Part shown: in pieces, positions 6,590-35,192 of the stretch
Layout of the letters: each line of letters begins with the position of its first letter
How positions within the stretch are numbered: position 1 is the first letter of the stretch
DNA from: Pirellulales bacterium
Lineage (GTDB): Bacteria > Planctomycetota > Planctomycetia > Pirellulales > Thermoguttaceae
Length of the DNA stretch: 58,178 bases
Assembly (NCBI GenBank): GCA_016931995.1
Contig: JAFGDS010000084.1
Coordinates: forward strand, 1-58,178
Direction: 5' to 3'
The notes under the pieces: model-generated
What the model saw: the letters and a program-made list of their open reading frames with translations, nothing else
Database searches by the model: none
Told to the model about the DNA's origin: nothing
Translations under genes and position numbers: made by a program

Positions 6590-8908
6590 CTAGGGGACTC
6601 GCGACAAGGTCAATGTCGTCTGAGAGCCCGTCGTGAGCGACAGCGCGAGCGACGTTCCGCCCCGATCGTCGCGCTGGCCGACGACGTCCTCCGGAAGCGA
6701 AGCGAGGTCGTAACGACCGGGCAGCCAGATCGTCCGCGTCACGCGCGTCTCGAAACCGTCGGCCGGCGGGACCATGACGGCCATCTGGACGCGGTCCCGA
6801 GTCTCCTTCAACAGCAAATACGCCGGCCCATCCGATCCGGCCGCGTCCTCGATCCGATCGGCGTCGAAGAAGCTCACCGCCGTGATGCCTTCGTCGGCGC
6901 GGATGGCGTGGGTCTTGGCGGTGTTGGCCAGCAGGTGGATTTTGGGCGCGGCGGCCATCGCGGCGACCTCTTCCGGCGAAGCGCCCGGCAATATCGCCGC
7001 GGCGTACGTACCGTTGGAGGGATTATCTCCATGTTCGGCGCGGACGCCGCCAAACTGGTTTCGGTAGGTCTCGCCGGTCCCGTAGGTCTGGTTGATCCGC
7101 CGCGAAGTGGCCTCGATGGTTCGGATGGCAACGCACAGGTCCATCGGCGCCAAGGCCACCACGCCCACGTCGCCCAGGCGGAACCAGTGGCGTCCGGACA
7201 ACCTCGATTGTTGATCGTCCCACGCCCGGGCATCGCCATCGACGAGCCAGGACGAATCGTCCTGGCGGCGAGGAACCAGGCAAATCGTCGTGCTGACGTC
7301 GCCTGGAGCGCGACTTGTGATGCCGCTGCCGACAAGCACGATCGCATTGGGCAGAAGAAGGTAGCTCTTGTTGGCCCGCAGGCTCTTCTCGGCGTTGGAC
7401 AGCTTGTAGTCGAACCCAGCCAGAGCGACGTCGTCCAGCGCGACCCCGCCGGTTTGCGTGGCCTCGCCTTTCGCGTCGTGCGGTCGCGCAAGCCCCTGCT
7501 GGCGCGTCACGCCGGGCAGGTCGTCGTAGGGCATGCACACGATCCGGTCGTACGCGAAGTCGTCGGGACGCGTCATAAGAGCCAGACTCCCCTCGGCCTG
7601 CTCATGCCCCAGGAGATTCTCATTGTGCAGCGTGAACCATGTCTTCGTTCGGGTCGAGTTCAGCCGAACGGCGGCGTACCAACCCGGCCGGCGCGCCGCG
7701 AGATAATCGGCCCGCGGGAAGTACTTTGTCCCGTACGCCGGCGGCGCGGGCTCGACTCCGGCCGTTTTCCACAAGTAATAAGCGGAAGGGTCTTCACCCG
7801 TCGCCACGGCGCCGGCGCCGTGCTCGGCCGCCATGGCCAGAAAGGCCCCGCGCCGATCGCGCGGCCAGGAGCCCACGTTGGCCAAATCGAGCGGCGGCCG
7901 ACCGGCGTTTGGAGCGTTGCGCGCCGCGCTTGCGCCAGTCGGGCGGTGTTCGCCGGAGACGTAGTAGGGGCGCGAACAGGCGCGGCCCAGCGTCCACGGG
8001 CTCCACGTGCCGCGCCACGCGTTCCAACGGAAGAACTCGTTTGTCCAGTTGCGAAGCTCCCGCGAGGCCGCCGGGGTCAGACTCCATCGCGTGCCGTCGG
8101 TGACGCGGGCGAACTCGCTGGTCGCCTCCCAATGGGCGAACCCGTAGCCGACGTTCAACCCCGGTCCGTGGAAGAAGTAGCTGTAATCCGGCCCGATGGC
8201 GTCTCGCCCCGTCAGCAGCCCGCTCATCGTGGCCGACGCCCGCTGCAGGAGGGCCGGATCATCGGCAAGCAGGGCCGTTCGCATCCGCACGATCGCGCAC
8301 CAGGCCGTATTGGCTCCGCCGCGAGGTCTCAGTTGGTTCTTTTTTGTCAAATGAACCTGCTCGCGCACGGCCCTCCGGCGGATCGCCGGCGCCAGGGCAT
8401 CGCCGGCGCAAAGCAGCGCGTCGCCGAGCCGATTGGGGATGCCGATGTCCCACGCCCACCAGTTGTTCGGCCGCTTGTGCGCCTCGAGGATCGGCATCGC
8501 GCGCTCGATGGCGCGATTCAATGCCGTGGCCACGGCCTGGCTACGGTAATACTTGCTGGCCGGGCACGCCCACGCGCGCGCCAGACGCGCGGTTCGCTGG
8601 AAATACCTTCCATTGAAGCTGATTTCCTTGCTTGTGATGTCCATTTGAGGATCCCAGCCGCCGAATCCGTCCGCCTGGGGATCCGTGATTTGCGAGGCCA
8701 AGAGATCCGCCACGGCGCGGTCCAGCGCCGCGGCCGCGGCCCGCGCCTCGGGCGCGGTCGGGTCCAATCCTTCCATCACGACCGGCGCGAGGTATCGCCG
8801 TCGGACCTCCTCCAGCCCGGCGTCGCTATCCGCCGCGAGTCCGGGCCGCGCGAAGCTCAAGACGACCACCGCGACCAAAGCCAAGGCATCCCAACGCTTG
8901 ATCCTCAT
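6590..8908 (-). CDS. Secreted polysaccharide lyase, family PL8-like
   Basis: The protein (772 residues) has a signal peptide (basic start, ALALVAVVVLSFARPGLA) followed by an (alpha/alpha) toroid and beta domains, as in hyaluronate/chondroitin/xanthan lyases. Family marks are NWWAWDIGIPNRL (typical NWW-W-IG-P motif), a catalytic-region FFHGPGLNVGYG with His and Tyr, and later NENLLGHEQAEG. It would cleave uronic-acid polysaccharides by beta-elimination outside the cytoplasm. AAGGAGG directly abuts an ATG at 8914, so I chose the second ATG at 8908, six bases from it. The exact substrate cannot be read. GH43 and another lyase-like protein lie within 11 kb. Confidence 0.8.
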   Translation of the reverse strand: MRIKRWDALALVAVVVLSFARPGLAADSDAGLEEVRRRYLAPVVMEGLDPTAPEARAAAAALDRAVADLLASQITDPQADGFGGWDPQMDITSKEISFNGRYFQRTARLARAWACPASKYYRSQAVATALNRAIERAMPILEAHKRPNNWWAWDIGIPNRLGDALLCAGDALAPAIRRRAVREQVHLTKKNQLRPRGGANTAWCAIVRMRTALLADDPALLQRASATMSGLLTGRDAIGPDYSYFFHGPGLNVGYGFAHWEATSEFARVTDGTRWSLTPAASRELRNWTNEFFRWNAWRGTWSPWTLGRACSRPYYVSGEHRPTGASAARNAPNAGRPPLDLANVGSWPRDRRGAFLAMAAEHGAGAVATGEDPSAYYLWKTAGVEPAPPAYGTKYFPRADYLAARRPGWYAAVRLNSTRTKTWFTLHNENLLGHEQAEGSLALMTRPDDFAYDRIVCMPYDDLPGVTRQQGLARPHDAKGEATQTGGVALDDVALAGFDYKLSNAEKSLRANKSYLLLPNAIVLVGSGITSRAPGDVSTTICLVPRRQDDSSWLVDGDARAWDDQQSRLSGRHWFRLGDVGVVALAPMDLCVAIRTIEATSRRINQTYGTGETYRNQFGGVRAEHGDNPSNGTYAAAILPGASPEEVAAMAAAPKIHLLANTAKTHAIRADEGITAVSFFDADRIEDAAGSDGPAYLLLKETRDRVQMAVMVPPADGFETRVTRTIWLPGRYDLASLPEDVVGQRDDRGGTSLALSLTTGSQTTLTLSRVP

Positions 8909-26639: not shown

Positions 26640-28076
26640 CTACGGCTCCGCGCCGGACGAATCCGGCTCGACGTGGATCACGACCCGACCCAGATTCGGC
26701 ACGCGGCGGCGCAAGTGTTTCTCCAACTGCTCCGTACAGGCGTGCGCGTCGGTGATCGGCGTGGCGGGATCCAGCGTGCAGTGGAAGGAAACGGTCCATT
26801 CCCCGCCGGCCATGTGGATCATCACGTTGTGCGGGCGCTTGGCCAGCGGATTGGTGTCCACAAGCTCGTCGATGGCCGCGAGGATCCGGGCCTGATCGAC
26901 CGGCTCCGCGCGGCGCGTGGCCGCCGCCTCGCCCATCGGCTCGATGTGCGTCACGATCCGCTCCACGTCCGGAAGGCTCTCGCGCACGGCGCTCTCAAAC
27001 CGGCTCGCCTGTCCGTGAGCCTCGTCGAGCGAAAGCGACTGGTCCACCTCGACGTGCAATTCCAGAGACCGCCGCCCCCGCTCCTGGTAGACGCGGATGC
27101 CGTGGGCGCCCAGGCCCTCGCGCGCGGCCAAAAGCCGGACGGTCGTCGTGAGATCCTCCTGGCCTCCTGGCGCCGGCTCGACGTGGACCACGACGTCGGC
27201 CGCGGGAGCGACCTCGCGAACCGCCGCCTCGACCCGATCGGCCACGTCGTGCGCGCCCTCCAGCGCCGCCGAGCGGTCCACGGCCACCGTCACGTCGGCA
27301 AACACCTCCGGGCCGCTTCGTCGGACGCGAACCTGCTTCACCTCGACCACGCCCGCCACGGCGCCGGCCGCCTGCCCAACGCGGTCCCGCAAGTCGCGCG
27401 GGATCCGATCCAAGAGATCGTTGACCGACTTCCGACCCAATTGCACGCTCACCCAGATCACGATTGCCGCCACGCCCAACGCGGCCGCCGCGTCGGCCTT
27501 CTCCAGCCAGGGCGCGTCGAGCCGCTCGGCCAGGACCACGCCCGCCAGCCCCACGAGCACCACGCTCGACGACCAGATGTCGGTCGAGAAATGCAGGGCA
27601 TCGGCTTCGAGCGCTTGGCTGTTGTACTTCCGCGCCACGCGCGCCAGCGCTCGCGAACGCGAATAGTCCACCATGATCGAGACGACCATCACGGCGAACG
27701 CCCAAACCGTAACCTCGACGACGACGTCCTCGCGGAAGAACAGCCGCGCGACGGCCTCGTGGACGATCCAGACGCACGTCAGCAGTAATAACAACGTCTC
27801 GAATAGCGCCGAGAGGTTTTCGAACTTGCCGTGGCCGTAGGTATGTTCCCGGTCGGCCGGCTTCCCCGCCGCTCGAACCGCCCAGAGCGTCACCCCCGCG
27901 GCCGCCAGGTCCAGCCCGGAATGCGCCGCCTCGGACAAGATGCCCAGGCTGTTGGTCGCCATGCCCACCACGATCTTCATCGCCGTCAAGAGCACGGCGG
28001 CCAACACCGACGAGAGCGCGACCCGCCGTTTCTCGCGATCCATCGCCGCGGCGTTCGGGGGCGTAGAGGTGCTCAT
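26640..28076 (-). CDS. Cation diffusion facilitator (CDF) transporter with three C-terminal domains
   Basis: A 478-residue protein. Residues about 15-215 are a six-helix CDF channel with the metal-site motifs AAHSGLDLA (helix 2) and ALHFSTDIWSS (helix 5), which point to Zn/Cd/Fe/Co-type divalent export by proton exchange. After it come three cytoplasmic domains in tandem, each ending in a VxHxEP-type strand (VVVHVEPA, IVTHIEPM, VVIHVEPD), where the family normally has one. GGAGGAGA upstream of the ATG at 28076 sets the start. It converges with the DUF1573 gene. Confidence 0.9.
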   Translation of the reverse strand: MSTSTPPNAAAMDREKRRVALSSVLAAVLLTAMKIVVGMATNSLGILSEAAHSGLDLAAAGVTLWAVRAAGKPADREHTYGHGKFENLSALFETLLLLLTCVWIVHEAVARLFFREDVVVEVTVWAFAVMVVSIMVDYSRSRALARVARKYNSQALEADALHFSTDIWSSSVVLVGLAGVVLAERLDAPWLEKADAAAALGVAAIVIWVSVQLGRKSVNDLLDRIPRDLRDRVGQAAGAVAGVVEVKQVRVRRSGPEVFADVTVAVDRSAALEGAHDVADRVEAAVREVAPAADVVVHVEPAPGGQEDLTTTVRLLAAREGLGAHGIRVYQERGRRSLELHVEVDQSLSLDEAHGQASRFESAVRESLPDVERIVTHIEPMGEAAATRRAEPVDQARILAAIDELVDTNPLAKRPHNVMIHMAGGEWTVSFHCTLDPATPITDAHACTEQLEKHLRRRVPNLGRVVIHVEPDSSGAEP

Positions 28077-28815
28077 GGACGGTTCTCCTCCAGGCCCTGC
28101 GTCATCGAGACGCGTCATCCCGAGCGCGGCAAAGGATCCCGTTTGCGACGGATCGCCCAATAAGGCGGGTTGGGCGGTCGCGATTCTCCGGCCAAGGCTA
28201 TCACGACCCGACCCTGCGGTGAAGTGCCGGACGGCCGGCGAGGCAACGGCACTCCCACCCCAAGAAATGGCACAGTCCGGGCGGCCCCGCGGCTTGCGGG
28301 GCCGACGCCGGACTGTCTCCCCCCCTGGGAATCTGCACCAGCCAACCTCGGCGCGTTGCACGGAGTGTCTCATCGGTCAGCCCGGGGTCGCCGCTTTGGC
28401 AATCTTTGCCGGTTATTTCATCCGTTCCAGTCAGGTCGGTTGTTTCGGCTGGTTAAACAGTGTCGGTTGCGCCGATCTTAGTGCCGACTCGAGGGCGACA
28501 TGAAACGGGACCATCGCCCACGCATGCCACGGTTGGCTCGAAAAAAGGGCGGACAAAGCCCCCGCCGCGCCGGAACGTGTCCAGCAGCCGCACGACGCCG
28601 CGGAAGCCTCGCCCCTTCCGGCAACCGGGCTTCCCAACACCCTGATTCCGCAATGCCATCGGCCAAACCAGGGGGGATTCACCGCTCCTGGGTATGAATA
28701 GAACCAACCGTTCGCGGGAGGTCCCCGACACGTTTTCGCCCTACAATCTCCGCCCCTTGCGTGCCGCCGCGTACGCCCACTCCACCCACAAGAACCTATT
28801 CGAGGATTCCCGCTC
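28077..28815. other. Long gene-free gap with hairpins
   Basis: No gene is supported in these 740 bases. It holds a degenerate copy of the GAGCGAAGCGAAGGATC repeat (about 28112-28140) and a strong GC hairpin (28271-28315, ACAGTCCGG and CCGGACTGT as outer arms, GGCCCCGC/GCGGGGCC as inner arms). Promoters of the flanking divergent genes are expected, but no clear -10/-35 pair is seen. Confidence 0.5.
28271..28315. repeat. Large GC hairpin related to the GGGACTGTCCC family
   Basis: Outer arms ACAGTCCGG/CCGGACTGT and inner arms CGGCCCCGC/GCGGGGCCG enclose a short GGCTT loop, giving a long, almost perfect stem. Confidence 0.6.
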
Positions 28816-30132
28816 GTGAACGACTCAGCCCGAATCACAAGCCACATCGGCAAATCCCCCATTTTGTGGGGATGTCTCGTATCCGCCGGGTTCTACGGCC
28901 TGGTGCATCTCGGCGTGATCGCGCATCCGTTGATCGCGGAGTACCTCACCGGCCACCCGATCGAGTACGCCACGACGGTGATGTTCTTCGTCGGCCTGGC
29001 CGTCCTCGTCCTTCGGCTGGTGGATCTGGCCTCGCCGTGGCCCCGCGCCGAACGGGACGGGCTGCTCTTGGGCCCCATCCCGCCTGGTGGGCAGCCGGTC
29101 CCGACCAGCGCTGCCCTGTTGGCCCGGCTCGATCAGGTGGCCCGCCACGCGGCAAGCCATCCCCTGACCACGCGCCTCCGCGAGGCCCTGGAATGGATCC
29201 GCCGGCAGGATTCGGCCGAAGGGCTTGACGGCGAACTGAAATACCTCGCCGAACGCGACGCCGAACGCCTCCACGAAAGCTACGACTTGTTCCGCGTCGT
29301 CACCTGGGCCATCCCCATCCTCGGCTTCCTCGGCACGGTCATCGGCATCACGCTAGCCATCGGCAAACTGGCAAGCGGGGCCATCGAGGAAATGATCGAG
29401 CCCACCATGATCGCCTTGGGCGTCGCCTTCGCCACAACCGCCCAAGCATTGACGCTCGTGATCATCCTGATGTTTGCCAAATACCTTGTCTCCCGCGCCG
29501 AGAGCCGCCGGGCGTCCGAGGTCGATCGCCGCGCGGATGAGGAGCTTCTAGGTCGGTTCGAGTTCTCCTCGGCCGCGCCCGACGCCCAGTTGGCCGCCAT
29601 ACGCCGCCTGGGCGAAACCGTGCTCCGCGCGACCGAAGATCTGGTACGCCGCCAGGCCGAGCTGTGGCAGGAATCGCTCCGCGCCGGAGCGCAACGCTGG
29701 AATCAATCCATCGAGGCCGCCGGCCGCCACGTGGAAGAAGGTCTGGCCAAGGCGCTGGCCCAAAACCTCAAGACGCACGCCGCCACGCTCGTCGAATACG
29801 AACAGGCCGTCGCCCGCCGCAACCAGGAACATTGGGACCGCGTCCAAAAATCGCTGGTCGAATCGGCCCAGGCGGCTCTCGCGCTCCAGAAGGGCGTCAA
29901 CCAGCAAACGAGCATCCTCCAGCAGACGGTCGAGGCCACCGGCCAGGTCGCTCGGCTCGAGGAAACGCTCAACCGCAATCTTGCCGCATTGGCCGGGGCC
30001 AAACACTTCGAGCAAACGGTCATGAGCCTCGCGGCCGCCATCCCGCTTCTGAGCGCGCGGCTGGGTGAATTGCCCGCGGCGCCGGGCCGCGTCCATCTCG
30101 ATAGGGTCCGAGAGAAACCCCACGCGGCATGA
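28816..30132 (+). CDS. MotA/TolQ/ExbB-family proton-channel protein with long cytoplasmic coiled coil
   Basis: A 438-residue protein with four membrane helices (about residues 17-37, 50-68, 155-180 and 195-225). The last two hold the family core (AIPILGFLGTVIGITLAI and ALGVAFATTAQALTLVIILM), where small residues line the channel. The rest (about 235-430) is a long charged helical tail, as in ZorA-like motors and other planctomycete TolQ proteins. Relatives form pentamers around a pair of ExbD/TolR helices and turn proton flow into work. The start codon is GTG with no strong ribosome site. Its stop overlaps the next start (ATGA), so the operon is tight. Confidence 0.85.
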   Translation: MNDSARITSHIGKSPILWGCLVSAGFYGLVHLGVIAHPLIAEYLTGHPIEYATTVMFFVGLAVLVLRLVDLASPWPRAERDGLLLGPIPPGGQPVPTSAALLARLDQVARHAASHPLTTRLREALEWIRRQDSAEGLDGELKYLAERDAERLHESYDLFRVVTWAIPILGFLGTVIGITLAIGKLASGAIEEMIEPTMIALGVAFATTAQALTLVIILMFAKYLVSRAESRRASEVDRRADEELLGRFEFSSAAPDAQLAAIRRLGETVLRATEDLVRRQAELWQESLRAGAQRWNQSIEAAGRHVEEGLAKALAQNLKTHAATLVEYEQAVARRNQEHWDRVQKSLVESAQAALALQKGVNQQTSILQQTVEATGQVARLEETLNRNLAALAGAKHFEQTVMSLAAAIPLLSARLGELPAAPGRVHLDRVREKPHAA

Positions 30133-31841
30133 GACGCACCGTTCCAGTCCGACGCGCCCGGCGACGCCGCGACACCACCGGCGTATCGCTCTTTCCCTTT
30201 CTTGCCGTGCTGATTTGCACGATGGGGGCGTTGATCCTGCTGTTGGTGGTCATGGCTCGCCGCGCGCAGGTCCAGGCCGCCCAGGAGGCCCAGGCCGAGC
30301 AGGCGCAGGCGGGAAAGCGGCTCGCCGAGAACCGCGAGGACGCCACGTGGCGGATCGACCATCTCCGCCGGTCGCTCTCGGCCACCGAGGCGCAACTGGC
30401 CGATGCCCGGTTCGAGCTGGGCCACCTCGAGGATCATGCCCGGCAGCTTCGCGACAAGCTCGCCGCCCTGCGCCGCGCGTGGGAACAACTCTCGCGGACG
30501 GACGCCGTGCAAGACAACGCCCAGGCCCGAGACGCCCAACTCGCCGAGCTCTCCGCCCGGATCGCCCAGGCCGAAACGGACCTGGCCGCGGCCCGGCAGG
30601 CGGCCGCCACGCGACGGCAATCGTACGCCGTGGTTCCCTACCAGGGGCCCCACGGAACCCAGCGGCGGCCAATCTACTTGGAATGCACGCCCCGCGGCAT
30701 CGTCTTCCAGCCCGAAGGCGTCGTCGTGGGACCGAACGATCTCGAAGGCCCTCTCGGGCCGGACAATCCGCTGGCTTCGGCCCTGCGGGCCGCGCGCGAA
30801 CACCTGATGCGACGCGGCGCGTTCGACCCCAACAAGCTCGAGGACGAGCCGTACCCGCTTCTTCTGGTCCGTCCCTCGGGCGTCGTCGCCTACTACGTGG
30901 CCCGCGACGCGCTGGAGTCGTGGGAATCGGAATTCGGCTACGAACTGATTGGCGACGACTGGACGCTGGAATTCCCGCCGGCCGACCCGGCGCTGGCCGA
31001 TGTCCTGCGCCAGGCGATCGACGCCGGGCGACTCCGCCAACGGATGCTGGCCGAGGCGGCCCCGCGCCACTTCAACCGTTATCGCGGCGCCCAGGCCGCC
31101 GCGCCGCAAGAGTACACCGTTTCCTCCGGTCGCGGCGGCGTCGAGCCCTACCGCGGTGGCGAGGCCGGTTTCGATGCTCCGCCGCGAGGCGCTGGCCGAT
31201 CGTCCCGCTGGCCCGACGCGGGCCGTGGCAGCGATGGTCCGTCCGGATCCGGCTCGCCAAACGGTCTGGCCAACGGCGACGGGGCCGGCCCGTCCGGCGG
31301 GCAAGGCCAACCAGGCACGGCCGGTCCGTCCGGCGGGCAAGGCACGGCGGATGCGGCAGGCGGCGAGCATGCGCCGGGCGCGGAACGTCGGCCGGGCCTG
31401 TACACGCCCTCGGCGTCCACCCCGCAAGGCGCCGTGCCATCCGGCGATCCCTCGGCGGCCCACGCCGCGCCGCCGGCCCGCCGCGCCCCGAGCCTGGCCA
31501 AAACCCGCGGCGAAAACTGGGCCCTGCCCGACGCCTCGCGCCGCGCCACGCCCCTCACGCGACCCATCCGGATCGAGTGCCACCCCGACCGGCTCGTGCT
31601 GGTCGCGCAGGCGGGACAGTTTGGCGGGCGGACCATTCCGTTGGGCGAGCAAACCGAGCAGGCGATCGACCGCTTCGTGTCGGCGGTTTGGGACTATACG
31701 GATACGTGGGGTATTGCCGGCGAGCGGATGTACTGGCGGCCCGTGCTGAACGTCTACGTCGCCCCCGGCGCCGCGGCGCGCTACGACGATCTAATCAACC
31801 TCCTGGACGGCAGCGGCCTCGTCGTCGAGCGGAAGCAGTAG
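30129..31841 (+). CDS. ExbD/TolR-like membrane protein lacking the membrane Asp
   Basis: A 570-residue protein. A basic N-terminus precedes one membrane helix (about 19-41, LFPFLAVLICTMGALILLLV), then a coiled coil (about 45-165), a periplasmic alpha/beta module (PIYLECTPRGIVFQPEG ... LLLVRPSGVVAYYVARDALE), a Gly/Pro/Ala/Ser-rich linker (about 330-465) and a second related module (PIRIECHPDRLVLVAQAG ... LNVYVAPGAAARYDDLI). The topology is that of ExbD/TolR/MotB stators, but its helix has no Asp for proton transfer. ATG overlaps the upstream stop. No published role is known to me. Confidence 0.75.
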   Translation: MRRTVPVRRARRRRDTTGVSLFPFLAVLICTMGALILLLVVMARRAQVQAAQEAQAEQAQAGKRLAENREDATWRIDHLRRSLSATEAQLADARFELGHLEDHARQLRDKLAALRRAWEQLSRTDAVQDNAQARDAQLAELSARIAQAETDLAAARQAAATRRQSYAVVPYQGPHGTQRRPIYLECTPRGIVFQPEGVVVGPNDLEGPLGPDNPLASALRAAREHLMRRGAFDPNKLEDEPYPLLLVRPSGVVAYYVARDALESWESEFGYELIGDDWTLEFPPADPALADVLRQAIDAGRLRQRMLAEAAPRHFNRYRGAQAAAPQEYTVSSGRGGVEPYRGGEAGFDAPPRGAGRSSRWPDAGRGSDGPSGSGSPNGLANGDGAGPSGGQGQPGTAGPSGGQGTADAAGGEHAPGAERRPGLYTPSASTPQGAVPSGDPSAAHAAPPARRAPSLAKTRGENWALPDASRRATPLTRPIRIECHPDRLVLVAQAGQFGGRTIPLGEQTEQAIDRFVSAVWDYTDTWGIAGERMYWRPVLNVYVAPGAAARYDDLINLLDGSGLVVERKQ

Positions 31842-31892
31842 CCGCTCGCGGCTTCGCACAAACGACCGAGAGACGAACAACCCGCCACGACC

Positions 31893-32909
31893 ATGAAAAA
31901 CCGCTTCCGCGAAGACGACAGCGGCGCCGGTCAGGATTCCTTCCTGGACATCCTGACCAACATCGTCGGCGTCATCATCATCTTGATGCTCGTGGTGGCC
32001 GTTCGCGCCAAGAACGCGCCCTTGACGCTTTCCGTTCCCAGTCCCAGTCAGCAAGCCGCGCGAAAGGATCTCGACGTCGATCTCGCCACCGAGCGATCGC
32101 TGCACAACAACGTCCTCGAGGTCGCCGCCCAAATCGAGACCGTCGCGCAAACCCGGCGCCTCCGCTGGGCCGAGCGGGCGCAATTGTCCCTGGCCGTCGC
32201 ACGAATCGAACAAGAGCTTCTGAATCGCCGCGACAAACTGGACGCCCAGGCCCAGGCCGATTTCGACCAACGCCGCGCGTTGGACGACGCCCAGGCCCGT
32301 CTGACCGAGTTGAATCGCCAACTCCAAAACGTCGCACGGACTCCGCCCACGTCCGTCCGCGTGGAAAGCTACCCCACGCCGCTGAGCAAGATCGTCAACG
32401 GCCAGGAGTTGCATCTCCAACTCCGCGGCGGCCGGCTGACCGTCGTCCCGCTGGATGCGTTGGTCGAGGAACTCAAGGCGGTTTTCCAGCAGAAGGCCCC
32501 GCGCATGGATCGCGACTCGGAGCTGAACGGCCAGCTCGGCCCGATCGGAGGGTTCCGCCTCCTGTATACCCTGCGTCGCTACGACGCCTCGATGCGCCAG
32601 TATGAACAAACCGGCCAAGGCGGCAGCATCGTGCGCGTCGAGGAGTTCGAGCTGCGGCCGATCAGCGAGGACCTCGGCGAGCCGCTTGAGGCGGCCCTGC
32701 GGGAAGGTTCCGCCCTGCGCCGCGAGCTGGCCAATCGCAATCCCGCCCGGACCACCGTCACCGTGTGGACCTACCCCGACGGCTTCGACGCCTTCCGCCA
32801 GTTGAAGAAAGACCTGTTCCACCGCGGCTTCGCCACCGCCGCCCGCCCCCTGCCCGAGGGCAAATTCATCGGTGGCTCGCCCGACGGCCGCCGCTCCGCC
32901 GCCCAATGA
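31893..32909 (+). CDS. ExbD/TolR-like membrane protein with the membrane Asp
   Basis: A 338-residue protein with one N-terminal membrane helix (about residues 16-37), DSFLDILTNIVGVIIILMLV, whose Asp in FLDIL matches the proton-carrying Asp of ExbD/TolR. A coiled coil (about 60-150) and a periplasmic module follow; its last part (TVTVWTYPDGFDAFRQLKKD, LFHRGFATAARPLPEG) is similar to modules in the gene before it. It starts 51 bases after the previous stop, on the same strand. Together the three genes look like one ExbB-type channel with two different stator partners. Confidence 0.8.
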   Translation: MKNRFREDDSGAGQDSFLDILTNIVGVIIILMLVVAVRAKNAPLTLSVPSPSQQAARKDLDVDLATERSLHNNVLEVAAQIETVAQTRRLRWAERAQLSLAVARIEQELLNRRDKLDAQAQADFDQRRALDDAQARLTELNRQLQNVARTPPTSVRVESYPTPLSKIVNGQELHLQLRGGRLTVVPLDALVEELKAVFQQKAPRMDRDSELNGQLGPIGGFRLLYTLRRYDASMRQYEQTGQGGSIVRVEEFELRPISEDLGEPLEAALREGSALRRELANRNPARTTVTVWTYPDGFDAFRQLKKDLFHRGFATAARPLPEGKFIGGSPDGRRSAAQ

Positions 32910-34615: not shown

Positions 34616-34846
34616 TTAGTCAACCAGTTTGGCAAACTCCTCCGGCGCGATGCTGGCCGCCCTGATAAGACCGCGAAGCGTGCCGTTTGGAAGAACTCGG
34701 CCTGAATGAACTGGGACCGTCAGAACGTAACAATGCCCAGGCTTCTTCATAATATGATGGCTTCCGTCGATCCGGACCACGGAGAAGCCCAGCCGCTCAA
34801 AAGCCCGGATGGCCTGTTTTCCATTCACGGCCGGCAGGTTAGGCAT
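34616..34846 (-). CDS. hicA: HicA-family mRNA interferase toxin
   Basis: A 76-residue protein with the double-stranded-RNA-binding-like HicA fold: GKQAIRAFERLGFSVVRIDG, catalytic His in GSHHIMKKPGH, and PNGTLRGLIRAASI. HicA cleaves mRNA until bound by HicB. ATG at 34846 (a TTG lies just ahead) overlaps the end of the HicB gene by eight bases, which gives coupled translation. The order antitoxin-then-toxin is reversed from E. coli hicAB. Confidence 0.92.
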   Translation of the reverse strand: MPNLPAVNGKQAIRAFERLGFSVVRIDGSHHIMKKPGHCYVLTVPVHSGRVLPNGTLRGLIRAASIAPEEFAKLVD

Positions 34847-35192
34847 CAATCAAAATCCATCGCTCCACCACATCAGCCGCCTTCTCTTCGATCTCAGTCG
34901 TCCAGGGAATCGAGTCGCCCGATTCGCGGTACACGGATATGGCGCCGCGAAAAGCCTCTTTGAGATTCCCGATAGCCTCTTCCATTGTGTCGCCCTGGCT
35001 CGCGACTCCCGGAAGGTCGGGGATCCACACGGAGTATCCATCCTCTTCTGGCATTATGAAGACGCGACACTCATACGGCGGCGGCTGAAAGCGGGTCCAC
35101 TCGGTCTCCAATAAAAGGCCTTCCGCACCGGACCGATAGTCCTCCGGTCCTTCCATCTGGACCCATAGCCCCCCATCATCAATCGTTGCCAT
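34839..35192 (-). CDS. hicB: HicB-family antitoxin
   Basis: A 117-residue protein whose middle has the HicB partial RNase-H-like domain (FIMPEEDGYSVWIPDLPGVA, SQGDTMEEAIGNLKEAFRGA). It carries an N-terminal extension of about 40 residues and lacks an obvious DNA-binding helix-turn-helix at the C-terminus, so it may not autoregulate in the usual way. The ATG has GAGG upstream. It neutralises the HicA toxin encoded next to it. Confidence 0.88.
   Translation of the reverse strand: MATIDDGGLWVQMEGPEDYRSGAEGLLLETEWTRFQPPPYECRVFIMPEEDGYSVWIPDLPGVASQGDTMEEAIGNLKEAFRGAISVYRESGDSIPWTTEIEEKAADVVERWILIDA

Follow-up and report, generated by a model that had tools for sequence, protein, structure and literature searches.

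A conserved planctomycete gene trio for a putative ion-driven motor with one ring protein and two unlike axle proteins

The window analysed here, the whole 58,178 nucleotides of contig JAFGDS010000084.1 (assembly GCA_016931995.1) from a Pirellulales bacterium, contains three linked genes on its forward strand, referred to as A, B and C, that encode one MotA/TolQ/ExbB-type ring protein and two single-helix axle partners. A preliminary description of the DNA had proposed this composition, and it is borne out by three plus-strand frames, a Pfam match on A and the homology of B to C. In the window the A and B genes overlap by 4 bases. The genes, together with the membrane helices and the codons on which the argument turns, are as follows.

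28816-30132, + strand: gene A, ring protein of the MotA/TolQ/ExbB type, its C-terminal part a long coiled coil, 438 amino acids, GTG start (PF01618)
29335-29337, + strand: codon of A Thr174 in the second core helix, the TolQ/ExbB pore threonine, aligned to TolQ GTVWG
29431-29439, + strand: codons of A Ala206-Thr207-Thr208 in the third core helix
30129-31841, + strand: gene B, Asp-less axle protein homologous to C, 570 amino acids
30186-30254, + strand: B membrane helix, residues 20-42, SLFPFLAVLICTMGALILLLVVM, placed by conservation and by a helix in the model
30204-30206, + strand: codon of B Ala26 (FPFLA), at the column of the ExbD/MotB Asp
31893-32909, + strand: gene C, Asp-bearing axle protein, 338 amino acids
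31935-32006, + strand: C membrane helix, residues 15-38, DSFLDILTNIVGVIIILMLVVAVR
31935-31937, + strand: codon of C Asp15, a second Asp one helix turn before Asp19 (DSFLD)
31947-31949, + strand: codon of C Asp19, the ExbD-type Asp

The A protein matches the Pfam family MotA_ExbB (PF01618) with E 8.3e-10 and 38.9 bits, above the curated cut-off of 22.9, and the same family is matched by all 33 aligned A relatives (E<=0.01). Its pore threonines are all but invariant, Thr174 being present in 130 of 130 A proteins and Thr208, which aligns to TolQ, in 129, with Ser in the remaining one. The match of C to the Pfam ExbD family (PF02472) is sub-threshold (E 0.16, 12.5 bits, cut-off 25.4), and the Pfam scan gave neither a PF02472 match in B nor any other useful one. 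Profile-profile comparison shows B to be homologous to C (probability 96.3%, E 1.6e-9), and the same alignment lays FLAV of B on FLDI of C, placing B Ala26 opposite C Asp19. This confirms the earlier claim that the membrane Asp is kept in the third gene (FLD) and missing from the second.

The asymmetry between the two axle helices is not confined to the window. We read the B column in 125 of 130 loci with a known genome (five had no readable B helix) and found Ala in 108, Asp in 10, Ser in 3, Gly in 2, and Thr and Glu in one each, while Asp19 of C is present in all 122 readable loci, the C of genome G032 having been set aside as a mis-hit at a contig end. In the sister family (f21) the B residue is Ala in 18 of 19 loci and Thr in the other, and C has its Asp in 18 of the 18 read. 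The membrane helix is also the most conserved 23-residue stretch of B, with a mean majority share of 0.83 compared to 0.46 elsewhere in the protein. The same pattern recurs in a short paralogous trio, in which b has Ser in all 20 distinct loci and c has Asp in all 14 read. In six genomes c is absent within about 1.5 kb of b, and in each of the six it is encoded elsewhere in the genome, Asp having been read in the unlinked c of five. By comparison, the eight ordinary ExbDs of the window's own genome, two tandem pairs included, all keep the Asp.

Conservation across the order rules out both a chance absence of the Asp and a degenerate B, and the missing Asp is, judged by this record, a maintained trait and not decay. 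Because it is conserved in the long trio, the sister family and the short trio, the neutral B helix can be regarded as a family feature, and if the two trios are paralogues it would be older than the split between long and short forms. The same genome also carries, on contig C119 (L095, around 6629-8354), MotA-like and MotB-like frames side by side, which from their motifs we take to be of flagellar type; presumably the genome has a flagellar stator too.

Within the order of the relatives, taken as Pirellulales, C is present in 291 of 297 genomes. Of the six without it, four have A and are fragmented assemblies, and two (G036 and G398) lack both genes. A relatives were found in 59 of 60 relatives searched, the weak matches there including ordinary ExbBs. 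In a sample of the phylum, B is detected at E<=0.001 in 37 of 294 genomes, which include all seven sampled from the order (counting the window's own) and 19 of 20 from the sister family; matches beyond the class are weak or to the short paralogue. A one-contig genome of the sister family, G156, has no B match and only a weak A match, indicating a possible loss of the trio. The 4-base overlap of A and B is seen in 26 of 42 complete long trios, for which gene starts were chosen by script, and A lies on the opposite strand in one of them; in the sister family the order A-B-C on one strand is found at 11 of 11 loci. The trio belongs to the core genes of one order of planctomycetes and of its sister family. 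Outside the class, a B-like frame in genome G115 (L129, 59 bits, FPFISVLLCTMG) is also without Asp at the column, and may possibly be a distant third version.

A natural experiment is provided by the ring protein, which occurs in two types, the common one and a second with the motif GTVxHFG. We assigned the second type to the 19 genomes passing E<=1e-105 with a second-type ring profile and the common type to 111, leaving G379 and G360, in which the ring residues are unreadable, out of both counts. All 111 genomes with the common ring have a neutral B (106 Ala, 2 Ser, 2 Gly, 1 Thr) and none an acidic one, whereas among the genomes with the second ring B has Asp in 17, Glu in one and Ser in one. 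The 19 B helices were read as a set of eleven, G367, and a further seven genomes found by their ring alone, for which an acid B was predicted before B was read; all seven have Asp. The three previously known common-ring members of family f7 all have Ala in B. The Glu beside a second-type ring belongs to G367 (L240) and the Ser to G359 (L209), and these are possible intermediates or exceptions to the Asp rule.

The two ring types have different histories on the trees of the three proteins. The A tree unites the second type in one clade (1 change, support 100). Its 18 readable bearers are scattered on the C tree, where placing them in a single clade is 165 log-likelihood units worse and is rejected (approximately unbiased test, p-AU 0.001). 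Ring type and B residue each change 6 times on the C tree and 7 times on the B tree; in the sign test on the C tree, B goes in the same direction in 4.6 of 5 pairs on average and never in the opposite one. An old A stands beside the Asp-type B in seven of the 19 swapped-ring genomes, and these decayed copies have lost both Thr174 and Thr208 in all seven, one of them (G606) having Thr at 207. In six of the seven genomes the new ring gene lies just upstream of the old A on the same strand, and at these six loci, all of family f7 (L351-L356, in G441, G444, G615, G631, G437 and G635), the order of new ring gene, decayed old ring, Asp-type B and C has the appearance of a ring replacement in which the dead copy is still present. 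These arrangements would fit horizontal replacement and the repeated loss of one member of an old pair of ring copies equally well.

Because, under either history, the residue at the Asp column of B answers to ring type, we place the B helix in the pore. The covariation is otherwise hard to explain and argues that the B helix contacts the ring at that point. Ring swapping is the best evidence for B in the pore. A placement of B outside the pore, as a separately anchored TonB/TolA-like transducer on the side of the ring with C2 filling the pore, has a precedent in TonB and TolA, which attach to the flank of such rings via an N-terminal helix, according to the available passages of PMC12204202. 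We think this arrangement quite improbable for B, as its helix is homologous to the C helix at the pore residue, that residue covaries with ring type, and the helix lacks a His such as the one in the SHLS motif of these transducers.

With the common ring C alone supplies the axle carboxylate, so the simplest complex contains both B and C. In our view the trio probably encodes an ion-driven motor of the MotAB/ExbBD class with the composition A5B1C1, in which the axle is heteromeric and the proton-carrying Asp comes from C only. Five A chains would form the ring, with one B helix and one C helix side by side in its pore. By analogy with the established 5:2 motors, C Asp19 would take a proton or ion from outside and release it inside, the ring stepping round the axle. 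Above the membrane B and C would continue as a long coiled coil, probably together (about 100-120 residues), and their three end modules, two from B, the last of them ExbD-like, and one from C, would act at the cell wall or outer membrane. A single axle carboxylate would give five equivalent states and about 5 rather than 10 protons per turn, in steps of 72 degrees or in limping pairs of 36 degrees, and the lopsided axle, with two modules on B and one on C, may give out force with a fixed polarity. An asymmetric stator with a single active Asp had been suggested in the preliminary description, and the order-wide asymmetry, the second paralogous trio and the Asp or Glu in B of 18 of 19 swapped-ring genomes lend it support that is indirect but strong.

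The ring may also contribute to ion handling. Position 206 of A lies, compared to TolQ, three residues past the conserved Glu column and two before the pore Thr, and in the 111 common-type rings it is Asp in 99, Asn in 7, Ala in 3, and Gly and Ser in one each, as against Asn in 19 of 19 second-type rings, 18 of which have an acid B. The equivalent position is hydrophobic in five ordinary ExbBs of the genome (F, L, V, V and I), and the ExbB/TolQ Glu column is itself V, T, I, L or S in the A proteins. This pattern is what would be expected if the carboxylate had moved from axle to ring, such that in most lineages five Asp206 residues replace the second axle Asp and ions pass by a two-site relay between ring and C, the motor then being not half-powered. 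Such a relay is a sub-reading of the A5B1C1 motor and compatible with it, and is conceivable but on the unlikely side, as 12 of the 111 common rings, the window's included, have no Asp206 and yet a neutral B. The same 12 contradict the broader proposal that the ring Asp always compensates for B. In the window A has Ala206 and is thus without the extra ring Asp, so its motor has neither a ring Asp at position 206 nor an Asp in B. It is ring type, and not Asn206 alone, that goes with an acid B, because seven common-type rings with Asn206 have a neutral B.

Beyond the membrane, the predicted models of B and C (mean predicted local distance difference test score, pLDDT, 76.3 and 84.4, respectively) have a single N-terminal helix that leads into a long coiled coil and then into alpha/beta modules, two in B and one in C.

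30255-30611, + strand: B coiled coil, residues 43-161 (model helices 22-123 and 128-161)
30621-31058, + strand: first of the two alpha/beta modules of B, about residues 165-310 (from residue 181 onwards, ten-residue blocks have pLDDT 82-98)
31545-31838, + strand: second alpha/beta module of B, residues 473-570, resembling the periplasmic domain of ExbD (VIA-align, middling Z)
32043-32339, + strand: C coiled coil, residues 51-149 (model)
32400-32882, + strand: C alpha/beta module, residues 170-330 (model)

The large periplasmic modules proposed earlier are thus found on both proteins, with the refinement that the B part consists of two separate modules, divided in the model by a low-confidence linker of roughly 100 residues. 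Compared with ExbD (8p9r_A) by VIA-align, the last B module scores Z 6.8 (root mean square deviation 2.6, 71 of 74 residues), in a range also reached by unrelated folds; 8vgd_B (6.5), 8vgc_A (6.4) and TolR 5by4 (5.7) follow. The ExbD-like fold predicted for this module is suggestive only.

A number of observations weigh against an A5B1C1 motor with a single axle carboxylate. The 1:1 axle is what we infer, and separate A5B2 and A5C2 complexes would fit the sequences too. Asp15 of C, found in 41 of 41 sequences in alignment A2 and replaced by Asn in G364 and Glu in G403, could serve as a second carboxylate. The extra ring Asp is missing from the window's own A, the seven Asn206 rings of common type have a neutral B, and G359 has Ser in B despite its swapped ring. 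In the phylogenetic comparison the five supported independent pairs on the C tree give p 0.0625 in the sign test, short of 0.05, and the B tree offers only three supported pairs (p 0.25, none in the opposite direction); the second-type ring clade sits on a long stem (1.16), where long-branch effects are possible, and the other 12 swapped-ring genomes have no old A beside B in the stretch examined. Finally, there are the comparisons of the axle proteins with ExbD by fold and profile. The Z of 6.8 for the last B module falls where unrelated folds score as well, VIA-align lists no ExbD row for the C model, which excludes nothing, and Foldseek gave no match of the B and C models to the PDB at E<=0.001. 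The B and C profiles have no significant match to the eight ordinary ExbDs of the genome (E 0.17-0.18), nor does that of the short paralogue b, and ExbD is not among the families shown for the alignments of the two proteins (25 of 46 and 25 of 77, E<=0.1).

If the two axle proteins do not mix, two homodimeric complexes could share one ring type, A5C2 doing the work and A5B2 being silent, non-conducting or a competing regulator. An axle of B alone would have no carboxylate where one is usually found, and A5B2 could thus act as a built-in off state. However, a purely silent A5B2 leaves unexplained both the Asp or Glu of B in 18 of 19 second-ring genomes and the presence of c elsewhere in all six genomes with an unlinked b, and we judge this arrangement improbable. 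The A5B1C1 motor with a mixed axle can be taken further, to an obligately heterodimeric, single-carboxylate axle throughout the order that uses about 5 ions per turn, with five ring Asp residues compensating in most lineages and repeated ring exchange, which in some genomes left a dead ring gene behind, nearly always restoring the B carboxylate. We put this fuller version forward tentatively, as an attractive possibility that falls somewhat short of being our expectation.

What load the motor might drive is not indicated by adjacent genes. The eight neighbours scanned in the window encode SRP54, a DUF1573 protein, a cation efflux protein, a CCA-adding-type enzyme, a HicB-like protein, a DUF6941 protein, DprA and an FG-GAP/dockerin protein. 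Among these eight, Pfam shows no TolA/TonB, TolB, Pal or OmpA partner and PADLOC no Zorya model, its sole matches being ShosA/PsyrA models on DprA, so that the earlier remark that no TonB, Pal, OmpA-type or Zorya gene is adjacent holds for this set. Two of the neighbours are described as follows.

26640-28226, - strand: cation efflux transporter whose membrane domain is followed by three stretches matching ZT_dimer
34839-35192, - strand: protein with a HicB-like antitoxin domain

Nor do the relatives reveal a companion. Comparison of 59 relatives' loci, many of which stop at a contig end, found no neighbour in more than 15, and at the 11 sister-family loci no gene besides A, B and C occurs in more than four; a conserved load gene beside the trio is accordingly rejected for the 59 loci compared. 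No TPR or vWA gene was noticed among the shared neighbours, though neither was searched for by name. A gene for a Pal-like lipoprotein with an OmpA-type C-terminus lies 3-4.5 kb upstream on the other strand at 5 of the 59 loci (L042, L049, L057, L058 and L072). A queD-like gene is near A at 15 of the 59, scoring above 100 bits at 14 of them, and a queC-like one at 8 (e.g. L052, L064 and L085), which probably reflects synteny and not function. The neighbours and the distribution together rule out a simple Tol/Ton annotation, and likewise a simple Zorya annotation.

The closest PADLOC models for A are nevertheless ZorA2, matched by 32 of 33 members at E<=0.001 (best E 2.4e-12), as would suit a Zorya-like anti-phage motor. 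We consider such a role very improbable, given that the trio is near universal in the order (C in 291/297), has no widely conserved neighbours, unlike an accessory defence island, and has no gene matching a Zorya model among the eight window neighbours scanned. Near universality in the order suggests that the trio serves a core task of the envelope and not defence. In the available main text of a study of essentiality in Planctopirus limnophila (PMC10632474), MotA, ExbB, proton channel and Tol are not named; the trio was not checked in that species.

The trio resembles ExbB-ExbD and TolQ-TolR in the ring threonines of A, the axle Asp of C and, suggestively, the putatively ExbD-like last module of B. 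It differs from them in its two unlike axle proteins, one of them Asp-less, in its long coiled coils, and in its ring, where V, T, I, L or S stands in place of the Glu of ExbB/TolQ; 99 of 111 common rings have an Asp three residues further along. Zorya has a single axle gene, ZorB, and ZorC and ZorD, or ZorE, stand beside ZorAB. The trio shares with that system a ZorA-like ring protein with a long coiled-coil tail (PDB 8vvi_F aligned), but has two axle genes and is a core gene set, not a defence island. A long periplasmic shaft on a 5:2 motor is also a property of GldL-GldM, in the account given in passages of PMC9389320; GldM, however, dimerises with itself, and the shaft of the trio is a predicted coiled coil rather than four periplasmic domains.

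A close parallel in gene content is AglR-AglQ-AglS of Myxococcus xanthus gliding, where a single TolQ/MotA-like ring gene likewise accompanies two dissimilar TolR/MotB-like genes, as described in part of the same review (PMC9389320). Whether AglQ and AglS pair in one ring is open in print, as far as the passages seen of PMC9389320 and PMC9120999 go. The two proteins are both described with a conserved helix Asp (PMC9389320), which B of the trio lacks when the ring is of the common type. They also both match Pfam ExbD in the portion available of PMC3169522, whereas neither B nor C of the window reaches the cut-off. Another described system, likewise present in Planctomycetes, combines one ring gene with two dissimilar axle-type genes and has TPR or vWA neighbours; the section describing it makes no mention of a member lacking the Asp. 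No Asp-less axle partner is reported in the literature searched, which comprised titles, the starts of abstracts and passages, with most subscription papers outside the search.

Ion-rotation coupling in 5:2 motors is argued from symmetry. In the passages available, the review holds that a 10-fold rotational symmetry is almost certainly universal among them, with steps of 36 degrees as its prediction, and it discusses five 72-degree steps, or limping pairs, for the case that the symmetry is broken from outside (PMC9389320). If our reading of the trio is true, a natural single-carboxylate axle breaks this 10-fold rule, and one family with one or two axle carboxylates, and matching ring types made by nature, would offer a direct test of it. 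The trio is also an unnamed core gene set in an order and a sister family whose envelope biology is poorly understood. A heteromeric axle with one axle carboxylate would most likely be new within the 5:2 motors, the known examples of which use two identical axle proteins.

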